21,179 nucleotides of DNA from positions 1-21,179 of the IMG/VR virus record IMGVR_UViG_3300025598_001310; one strand, 5' to 3'. Position 1 is the stretch's first letter. Each line of letters starts with the position of its first letter. A program made the position numbers and the translations under genes. The notes under the pieces are model-generated. The model was not told the origin of the DNA. It made no database searches and was given only the letters and a program-made list of their open reading frames with translations. Origin of the DNA: a virus. Of this stretch, positions 1,419 through 2,741 are shown in pieces.

Positions 1419-1447
1419 TTGACAAGCTCGCGCCGATCTGGTTTAAT
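1419..1447 (+). promoter_or_regulatory. Sigma-A-type promoter of the clamp operon
   Basis: A perfect -35 TTGACA (1419-1424) and -10 TTTAAT (1442-1447, five of six consensus bases) are separated by 17 bases. The sequence from the -35 on (TTGACAAGCTCGCG) is identical to that of the promoter at 2690, so both may answer to the same regulator. Predicted transcription start is near 1454. Confidence 0.8.
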
Positions 1448-1451
1448 TGTA

Positions 1452-1476
1452 TTACTTAGGCAGACTACCTAGGTAA
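1452..1476 (+). promoter_or_regulatory. 5'-end hairpin of the clamp mRNA
   Basis: TTACTTAGG (1452-1460) pairs with CCTAGGTAA (1468-1476) over nine base pairs with one G-U, around the loop CAGACTA. It would form the very 5' end of the transcript, followed by AATAAATAA and the ribosome site AAGGGAG (1486-1492). The same loop on a different stem sits in the leader at 2727. Confidence 0.7.
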
Positions 1477-1498
1477 TAAATAAACAAGGGAGCTTTAA

Positions 1499-2101
1499 AT
1501 GTTTACGATTCAATTAGAAGGTCAGGATTACCTAGACATTGCAAGCGCGGCGAATTTCGCTGCAAGCGATAAGGCTAGGCCAATACTAACAGCAGTGAAA
1601 CTACACCTAGTGGGCGATACACTTAGCGCGGTTGCTACTGATAGTTACAAGCTAGTAACGATCAAGCGAGACATTACTGAGCTGGCTGGAGATTACGCCA
1701 CTATGGGGGAATTGCTGGTGCCAGGCGTAACGCTACTGAAGGCGGCTAAGTCCGTGAAGGCAGTGCGTCGAGAGTTGCCAAGCGTCCTAATGACATTCAA
1801 CGAGGATGGAAGTTTCACCATTAGCTGCGCTGGTGACATTGTAGGCGGCGAACTAATAACGGGCAATTACCCTAAACTAGACACCGTAATACCTGGGGCC
1901 AGTGGCATTAGCGAAACTGACGCTATCGCGTTTGATCCATCGCAGCTCGCGCAGTTCGCGAAGGTTGCACCATTCAACGTTAAGAATGTTGGCAGTAACA
2001 CTATGGTTATTAAGACTATTACCGATAAGAATCGGCCTATGCGCGTTGAATCGACTGATGGCCGCACCGTGGGCGTACTTATGCCAGTAAGGATGAACTA
2101 A
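1499..2101 (+). CDS. DnaN-like DNA polymerase sliding clamp, short two-domain form
   Basis: The clamp encircles DNA and tethers the polymerase. Recognisable beta-clamp motifs, in order, are RPILTAVKLHL at about 27-37, ATDSYKL at 46-52, the domain-junction motif YPKLDTVIP at 124-132 and the C-terminal LMPVRMN at 194-200 (compare bacterial DnaN ending MPMRL). Those motifs belong to domains 2 and 3 of bacterial DnaN, so at 200 residues, against about 370, the protein appears to lack domain 1. Two-domain clamps such as PCNA and T4 gp45 form trimers, and that is the expected state here. The ATG has AAGGGAG six bases upstream. It begins an operon whose next start overlaps its stop (TAATG). Confidence 0.85.
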   Translation: MFTIQLEGQDYLDIASAANFAASDKARPILTAVKLHLVGDTLSAVATDSYKLVTIKRDITELAGDYATMGELLVPGVTLLKAAKSVKAVRRELPSVLMTFNEDGSFTISCAGDIVGGELITGNYPKLDTVIPGASGISETDAIAFDPSQLAQFAKVAPFNVKNVGSNTMVIKTITDKNRPMRVESTDGRTVGVLMPVRMN

Positions 2102-2430
2102 TGGAATCCCAGAAGATAGCAGAGGACCTAGCGCGCGAATTAGAAGACCTAACCGGTGACGCGATAGATAACTACGTTAGCGAATGTTTAGAGATAGTCA
2201 TTATTTATCGCCATTCATTGGGCGGCAGTAAGACCAATCCTGATCCTAGCGGCGTAGAGTTGTTGGTTAGTTATGGCGGCCCATCCACTAGGGTAATTAG
2301 TCGAATTGGCAGCGATTACCTAACTATTAAGGTGAACTGGTGGGATGACACTTATGAAACTACTTCATACGCGCCGGAAGTAGCCGCCTATCTTAACGAA
2401 TTGGCAGAATGTTACGAGGTTGGACTATGA
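2101..2430 (+). CDS. Conserved-looking phage protein of unknown function
   Basis: This is an acidic 109-residue protein. The N-terminal helix (AEDLARELEDLTGDAIDNY) is followed by a predicted beta-rich part with GGPSTRVISRIG at about 59-70 and the aromatic stretch VNWWDDTYET. The GGPxxRxI pattern is one I associate with small phage proteins coded near replication genes, but I cannot name a family. It starts on the last base of the clamp stop codon and its own stop overlaps the next ATG (ATGA), so all three genes are likely translated in a coupled way from the 1419 promoter. Confidence 0.75.
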   Translation: MESQKIAEDLARELEDLTGDAIDNYVSECLEIVIIYRHSLGGSKTNPDPSGVELLVSYGGPSTRVISRIGSDYLTIKVNWWDDTYETTSYAPEVAAYLNELAECYEVGL

Positions 2431-2621
2431 GACTACGCAACTACGCCGCCGGCATTGCTTCACCTGTTACCGCCTACCTATTAGCGGACCTATTCAAGCA
2501 TCACGAGGGGCCTTTTGCTTGTAGTTCGCAGGTATGCGGCCCTGATGATCTGCCAGGATGGCTATTTATTGCCGGATGGGTACTAATCTACTGGGGATAC
2601 ACCAAGCTACGCGATCATTAA
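2427..2621 (+). CDS. Small membrane protein, unknown function
   Basis: The ATG at 2427 overlaps the preceding stop as ATGA and has GAGG at 2416-2419 seven bases upstream, so I prefer it to the in-frame ATG at 2409. The 64-residue product has a first apolar stretch at about 6-20, a short loop with two cysteines (C32 and C37), and a clear transmembrane segment (GWLFIAGWVLIYWGYT) near the C-terminus. The two cysteines could form a disulfide if the loop is outside the cell. No family is recognised. It is the last gene before the terminator at 2643. Confidence 0.65.
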   Translation: MRLRNYAAGIASPVTAYLLADLFKHHEGPFACSSQVCGPDDLPGWLFIAGWVLIYWGYTKLRDH

Positions 2622-2635
2622 TACGTAGCTACGTA
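2622..2635. repeat. Perfect 14-base palindrome, copy 1
   Basis: TACGTAGCTACGTA is its own reverse complement and starts one base after the stop of the small membrane protein. A second copy of its 10-base core is at 3047-3056. The two flank the monocistronic unit at 2690-3030, one before and one after it. They could be protein binding sites or recombination boundaries. Confidence 0.6.
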
Positions 2636-2642
2636 ATAAAGG

Positions 2643-2676
2643 CCGGTCCTGGGGTAATTCCTGGGGCCGGTTTTTT
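2643..2676 (+). terminator. Rho-independent terminator of the clamp operon
   Basis: CCGGTCCTGGGG (2643-2654) pairs with TTCCTGGGGCCGG (within 2658-2670) in a 12-pair stem with several G-U pairs and a four-base loop, followed directly by TTTTTT (2671-2676). It separates the clamp operon from the next promoter. Confidence 0.9.
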
Positions 2677-2689
2677 ATTGTCTAATGAC

Positions 2690-2718
2690 TTGACAAGCTC
2701 GCGAGCTTTCGTTATAAT
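2690..2718 (+). promoter_or_regulatory. Consensus sigma-A promoter with palindromic spacer
   Basis: TTGACA (2690-2695), a 17-base spacer and TATAAT (2713-2718) form a perfect consensus promoter. The spacer is largely the 14-base perfect palindrome AAGCTCGCGAGCTT (2695-2708), a plausible operator for a dimeric repressor sitting between the boxes. The clamp promoter carries only the left half of it. Transcription should start near 2725. Confidence 0.88.
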
Positions 2719-2726
2719 TTAGATTA

Positions 2727-2741
2727 CCGGCAGACTACCGG
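2727..2741 (+). promoter_or_regulatory. 5'-end hairpin with conserved CAGACTA loop
   Basis: CCGG (2727-2730) pairs with CCGG (2738-2741) around CAGACTA (2731-2737), with a possible TTA/TAA extension across a two-base bulge. The loop and the downstream AATAAATAAGGGAG match the clamp leader while the stem bases differ. Confidence 0.65.

Follow-up and report, generated by a model that had tools for sequence, protein, structure and literature searches.

A covarying leader hairpin with a GACU apex precedes exchangeable genes in phages of probable actinobacterial hosts

The DNA analyzed here, hereafter the window, comprises all 21,179 bases of the IMG/VR virus record IMGVR_UViG_3300025598_001310 and is probably a fragment of a phage genome. 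Pfam and PHROG profile matches identify two WhiB-like proteins among its products. WhiB is given as an actinophage marker (PMC10202952), and the two proteins indicate that the host of the phage is probably an actinobacterium. From left to right, the two whiB genes are followed by the gene of a DnaA-C-domain protein, promoter P1, a gene encoding a 200-residue clamp-like protein and two small genes; then come a terminator-like site, promoter P2, the gene of a 70-residue Cys/His protein and a further terminator-like site (Table 1). PHROG 947, which the clamp-like protein matches, is annotated as DNA polymerase processivity factor. The start of the small Cys protein that closes the P1 operon is taken as the ATG at 2427, the open reading frame list giving 2409. 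The P2 protein has no Pfam match; a motif read by eye suggests that it is perhaps zinc-binding. Farther along, positions 4277-4762 encode a phage protein with a match to PHROG 1040 (E 2.1e-11), the 'peptidase HslV family', and this type of protein is present in many of the terminase relatives described below too.

Upstream of P1 stands a pair of GAGGGTATC copies. The exact sequence occurs in the window only at 1146, 1306 and 1338, all upstream of P1, and a pair spaced by 25-32 bp precedes P1 in all six records that cover this place; with one mismatch allowed, the window count is 5, no more than expected by chance (12 of 100 shuffles). One copy reads TATCCACA, which we take to be close to a DnaA box, and the copies are a possible candidate site of the adjoining DnaA-C-domain protein.

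Table 1. Features at and around promoters P1 and P2 of the window
Feature	Position	Strand	Basis
DnaA-C-domain protein	780-1184		Pfam profile match
GAGGGTATC pair upstream of P1, first copy	1306..1314	+	exact match
GAGGGTATC pair upstream of P1, second copy	1338..1346	+	exact match
Promoter P1: TTGACA (1419-1424), 17-nt spacer, TTTAAT (1442-1447)	1419..1447	+	read from sequence
P1 5'-terminal hairpin (predicted)	1450..1478	+	folding, shuffles, covariation
AAGGGAG Shine-Dalgarno site of clamp gene	1486..1492	+	read from sequence
Clamp-like protein, 200 aa	1499..2101	+	Pfam DNA_pol3_beta_2 E 1.9e-9; PHROG 947 E 8.8e-12
Accessory ORF of P1 operon, 109 aa	2101..2430	+	Pfam / PHROG: no family found
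Small Cys-containing protein, 64 aa, last gene of P1 operon	2427..2621	+	aligned across six records
Terminator-like site immediately 5' of P2	2638..2675	+	consensus scan
Promoter P2: TTGACA-17-TATAAT, 12/12 sigma70 consensus	2690..2718	+	consensus scan
P2 5'-terminal hairpin (predicted): CCGG / CCGG, loop CAGACTA 2731-2737	2727..2741	+	folding, shuffles
AAGGGAG Shine-Dalgarno site of P2 gene	2749..2755	+	read from sequence
Small Cys/His-rich protein (P2 gene), 70 aa	2762..2974	+	ORF
Terminator-like site 3' of P2 gene	2997..3024	+	consensus scan

A preliminary description of this DNA had proposed that P1 and P2 share a promoter sequence and that each is followed by a hairpin with the loop CAGACTA on a stem of its own. 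Both points hold: TTGACAAGCTCGCG occurs exactly twice in the window (1419 and 2690), and RNA folding recovers the two hairpins, whose differing stems both pair, at -10.2 kcal/mol for P1 (from 1451 on) and -5.2 kcal/mol for P2. GGCAGACTACC also has two exact copies in the window (1459 and 2729). In P1, the arms 1450-1460 and 1468-1478 enclose the loop at 1461-1467 with its GACT core at 1463-1466; the inverted repeat is as described, whereas the nine perfect pairs ascribed to it are instead 11 pairs with one U.G. The true start may fall inside the first arm, leaving the outer three to five of these pairs upstream of it and untranscribed. In P2, one fold adds ATT/AAT outside the CCGG stem, with a bulged A. 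Both leaders have the same layout, a -10 box followed by the hairpin, an A-rich spacer and the ribosome site AAGGGAG, which before the clamp gene presumably pairs with the actinobacterial anti-Shine-Dalgarno sequence. The leaders had been called identical; they share AAGGGAG but differ, with AATAAATAAACAAGGGAG in P1 and AATAAATAAGGGAG in P2. The GGGAG once counted in the common motif is present at both promoters but is part of the Shine-Dalgarno site and not specific to the hairpin, and it can be read before the ATG at 4910 without such a hairpin.

Dinucleotide shuffles of the whole leaders folded equally well in 4 of 200 cases for P1 and 22 of 200 for P2, and those of shorter stretches in 0 and 3 of 200, respectively. 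With the loop held fixed and the single bases of the flanks shuffled 5000 times, p was 0.0004 for P1 of the window and 0.029 for P2. As the chance values of P2 are modest, P2 by itself is weak and the relatives carry the case.

Searches with the clamp as query gave one close IMG/VR record (L003/L189). The terminase query gave 120 relatives, of which the best 80 loci were kept; the clamp, DnaA-C and operon-end alignment queries returned already known records plus one edge piece, and a terminase search of genome contigs returned just one locus, a distant one in a record titled as a gammaproteobacterial MAG. The IMG/VR relatives contain six further copies of the hairpin. The P1 place is covered in six records (the window, L003/L189, L185, L209, L194 and L196), and promoter and hairpin are present in every one; L194 and L196 have identical DNA there, leaving five distinct P1 copies. 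The P2 place is covered in these six records and in L193, and the hairpin is present in three of the seven (the window, L003 and L193); it was not found at the P2 place of L185, L209, L194 or L196. Five of the six further copies have stems other than those of the window, for example GCGG/CCGC at P2 of L003, and L193 keeps the CCGG of the window P2. Stems that fail to pair in relatives had been set beforehand as the observation that would count against the proposal; all six further copies pair. In flank shuffles, each hairpin being compared with its own shuffles, p was 0.0020 (L003), 0.0018 (L185), 0.0024 (L194) and 0.0040 (L209) at P1 and 0.0048 (L003) and 0.012 (L193) at P2, so that the eight hairpins range from 0.0004 to 0.029. 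The geometry is also alike, with the hairpin 2-8 nt past the -10 box and 31-41 nt from the start of the loop to the ATG. The sample is small, eight copies taken from six records, and its members are partly related: the P1 copies of the window and L003 are orthologues, as are the three P2 copies. The P2 stems are also short, with four GC pairs.

Does the element act as RNA or as DNA? Covariation was scored in a gapless 33-column alignment of the eight copies. The score is 0.603 against 0.219 +/- 0.068 in shuffled alignments, none of 500 shuffles being as high, and reaches at most 0.254 when the partners are slid out of register. Two-sided changes occur in seven of the eight pairs (reached by 16 of 500 shuffles) and in 14 cells (1 of 500), and 73.4% of the cells in this alignment pair, against 53.1 when shuffled. 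L185, which has one base fewer on the 5' side, is out of the gapless register and lowers the score of this main test, in which it was kept; without it the score is 0.762 and at most 0.262 when slid, and in its own register it forms a stem of eight pairs below a closing U-A. Among the 59 stem positions of the eight hairpins, counted by a script that walks outward and halts at a mismatch unless two pairs follow, 51 are Watson-Crick, seven G.T, one other and none A.C. A G.T on the plus strand is a G.U in plus-strand RNA and an A.C on the opposite strand, so that this bias names the strand and argues against a DNA operator; it leaves out the loop-closing position, and with this included the tally is 8 G.T to 4 C.A, which weakens the strand argument.

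These results bear on the view that the inverted repeat around CAGACTA is a double-stranded DNA operator. Symmetric arms just past the -10 box would suit a repressor site, column C22 is invariant and G12 is kept in seven of eight copies. However, the remaining columns of the arms are poor in information (mostly 0.2-0.9 bits), the arms covary, and the irregular stem pairs are all G.T and none A.C. We consider an operator very unlikely. The earlier reading of the element as RNA is upheld by the covariation over eight copies; the predominance of G.T over A.C gives it weaker support. The comparisons support a hairpin that acts as plus-strand RNA, in which pairing and the GACU apex are kept and the letters of the stem, like the genes behind it, are exchangeable. 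The RNA nature of the element is well supported; its function we infer.

The loop was first described as a fixed CAGACTA. Its core stands, GACT being invariant at the apex in all eight copies, while the ends of the 7-mer vary: the loop-closing position is C.A in four copies, U.G in one, U-A in L194 and L185 and G-C in L209. Since C.A and U.G are interchangeable in RNA, a closed pentaloop W-GACU would fit the exchange at this position. The window P1 and P2 copies were given at the outset, and P1 and P2 of L003 and P2 of L193 were found by scripts seeking CAGACTA or NAGACTN with pairing flanks, so that the shared loop of these copies partly reflects how they were chosen. The copies of L185, L194 and L209 were located by place and not by loop; all three carry GACT at the apex and are for this reason less biased evidence for the loop.

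An exposed loop could also dock a phage or host RNA acting in trans, by kissing or antisense pairing, and in the window TAGTCTA can be read near 3506, complementary to AGACTA. However, only four loop bases are invariant, their flanks differ within the single genome of L003 (UAGACUG and CAGACUA), and the stretch near 3506 could itself pair (GTCTA...TAGAC, by eye). An RNA partner therefore appears quite improbable.

Which genes does the element precede? Three of the eight copies stand before a clamp gene and five before other genes. P1 is followed by a clamp-like gene in the window, L003 and L194, the L194 clamp being 41-43% identical to that of the window. No clamp was found in the P1 operons of L185, where the proteins behind P1 have 187 and 149 residues and match no family above the cut-off, or of L209, where five small open reading frames follow, one of which matches DUF1281_C right at the cut-off. 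The small closing gene of the P1 operon is conserved. At P2, the window and L193 encode related Cys proteins (51%), and L003 a different 54-residue CxxC...CxxC protein. Conversely, the clamp relatives in L262, L223 and L214 (38-43%) lack any match to model R1 of the element, which argues against a clamp-specific operator. On this comparison the element is a part of the variable accessory slot, the predicted P1 operon, and not of the clamp. The proposal that it coordinates the clamp operon with the Cys protein is not established: the element heads operons in L185 and L209 in which no clamp was found, the clamps of L262, L223 and L214 are without it, and P2 was not found in four of the seven records covering its place.

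Wider searches added no copies. Pattern scans of the collection gave at least 119 stretches for TTGACAAGCTCGCG, 62 for GGCAGACTACC..AATAAA and at least 119 for TTGACA..TAAATAA..GGGAG; among 185 sequences, CAGACTA loops with at least four pairs behind a TTGACA promoter occur only in the window and L003. Other CAGACTA loops, for example those of L138 and L182, were set aside, having by eye no TTGACA promoter. A script for a promoter followed by a GACT-loop hairpin returned six distinct sites in 389 sequences, four of them aligned copies, its -10 filter missing P1 of the window, L194, P2 of L003 and L209. The same script returned 1 to 8 sites for each of seven control cores, so that when used blindly it does not outperform chance. 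Model R1 was built from eight of the nine sites, the ninth (L196) having the L194 DNA there. In the window and the 80 terminase-relative loci it gave 15 matches at E<=10, namely the nine known plus-strand sites, five mirror images of these and one chance match, and no new copy; over six whole records it matched in four, none new.

In Rfam 15, searched with the whole window at E<=1, no family fits the element, leader riboswitches included, and the sole match is to a snoRNA model at 18087 (E 0.66, 21.1 bits, cut-off 70). A preQ1-like riboswitch, suggested by the A-rich tail, was dropped for want of an Rfam match. Against 50,697 phage records, blastn gave weak partial matches to four records for the P1 region and one for the P2 region (E 0.3-0.9), in phages of other hosts.

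Separately, window positions 3131-3745 (wider block 2975-3900), about 2 kb upstream of the terminase gene, are a candidate large structured noncoding RNA. Both end blocks are present in 48 of 81 loci (the window and the 80 terminase relatives) with a span of 381-615 nt, some of these loci sharing a contig or DNA, many being truncated, and the 100%-identity 5'-block matches of L247, L250, L260 and L261 possibly being short chance matches. Folding 30 chosen loci, without a shuffle control, gave two-sided changes in 28 of 60 predicted pairs (e.g., CG 15/GC 14, AT 15/GC 13); the consensus energy is -75.8 on the plus and -86.5 on the minus strand, which leaves the strand unsettled. The region has no Rfam match in the window (E<=1) or in eight further loci (E<=0.5), and none in the 50,697 phage records at E<=0.01. 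Behind it, at about 3792-3885, a TATAGT box, a 5' hairpin GTAGGA-AAA-TCCTAC, ACTTCCGA and a terminator-like site (3854-3881) form what looks, from its sequence, like a small RNA of about 90 nt. The promoter at this place heads ten distinct hairpin leaders in related phages, four sharing a core stem and an AAA loop and the remaining ones with other stems and loops, their pairing not being scored for covariation.

Phage leader hairpins with conserved loops are already known; nothing was found in the published literature searched on a leader with a GACU apex and exchangeable genes. The T4/RB69 gene 43 translational operator resembles the present element: it is a hairpin in the leader of a replication gene, some 40 bases ahead of the AUG, with the top and loop conserved and the lower part differing (PMC3014915). 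The T4 hairpin is, however, read by its own gene product (PMC3014915), whereas the element, with GACT kept in 8/8 copies and a predicted place at the 5' terminus, is common to unrelated genes and was not found before the clamps of L262, L223 and L214. Similarly, the SAS/ESAS repeats of Cluster K mycobacteriophages (PMC3203893) and of Cluster EF Microbacterium phages (PMC7302621) stand before start codons of unrelated actinophage genes, and those of Cluster K include inverted repeats upstream of the ribosome site. Cluster K repeats conserve their arms, and their authors found little support for RNA pairing (PMC3203893). In place of the 13-bp GGGATAGGAGCCC-like sequence of an SAS our leaders carry AAGGGAG only, and in place of the 17-bp inverted repeats of an ESAS, with conserved arms and a variable spacer, the arms vary and the loop is kept. 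At the ten SAS places of AnnaSerena, GTAGCG lies upstream in nine and TATAGT in three; the idea that the Cluster EF ESAS is a hidden hairpin of a like kind was abandoned, no shared loop being seen by eye at these ten places.

HK022 put RNA offers another comparison, since putL lies, like our hairpin, directly behind an early phage promoter (PMC9378689). A nascent-RNA antitermination or anti-pausing element of the put or nut type would let polymerase pass the terminator-like site between the P1 operon and P2, and the position at the 5' end of the operon would suit it. However, put RNAs are about 70 nt with two stem-loops and bind polymerase (PMC9378689); here a single hairpin of 15-31 nt is followed by an open A-rich leader, and every group of genes comes with a promoter and a terminator-like site of its own. 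We regard this reading as improbable.

We propose, with a probability of about one half, that the element is a 5'-terminal hairpin that protects the mRNA and whose GACU apex also docks a factor, thereby tuning a small regulon. The hairpin would open the mRNA, lying no more than a few bases from the predicted +1, a placement deduced from the -10 box: a spacing of 2-8 nt would put the 5' end in or beside the duplex. The hairpin would comprise 4-11 consecutive pairs with the apex W-GACU (in L185, a U-A pair closes GACU). Behind it would come an A-rich spacer without pairing and then a strong Shine-Dalgarno site. According to a review (PMC3997798), single-stranded 5' ends are required by RppH and RNase E, 5' hairpins stabilize Bacillus messages, and 5' secondary structure stabilizes mRNA in E. 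coli and B. subtilis. By analogy, the base-paired 5' end would guard the message from 5'-end-dependent decay while the ribosome site stays open, as in those bacterial stem-loops; that source describes, in the part available, no conserved loop, whereas here GACU is invariant. The apex would be the docking site of a factor from the phage or its host. Since no more than four loop bases are conserved and their flanks differ within one genome, a protein is a likelier reader than an antisense RNA. The factor would tune stability or translation of the accessory operon at P1 and, in phages that have it, of P2.

A simpler explanation is a plain 5'-end stabilizer without a partner, in which any stem serves and GACU is kept by good folding or common descent. 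The leaders of the promoter behind the noncoding region, a second class of 5' hairpin with differing loops, suggest that these phages habitually begin their transcripts with a hairpin and that GACU is an extra. P2, moreover, may have arisen recently as a duplicate of P1, with which it shares TTGACAAGCTCGCG. On the other hand, GACT is kept on differing stems in L194, despite the divergence of its clamp, and in L185 and L209 with other genes, and to our knowledge GACU is not among the usual extra-stable tetraloops. We consider the plain stabilizer rather unlikely, if still a serious contender beside the protecting and docking hairpin that we prefer. A bolder form of the latter, which we put forward tentatively and at less than even odds, is that the GACU hairpin is the mark of a dedicated RNA-binding phage regulator, a portable promoter-plus-leader that would control exchangeable accessory genes post-transcriptionally.

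Finally, we know of little study of post-transcriptional control in phages of uncultured actinobacteria. The element described here is a compact leader with rules for both stem and loop, and it would offer a handle for fishing out its binding partner. It also shows an accessory-gene slot in which the leader stays in place and the genes are swapped.
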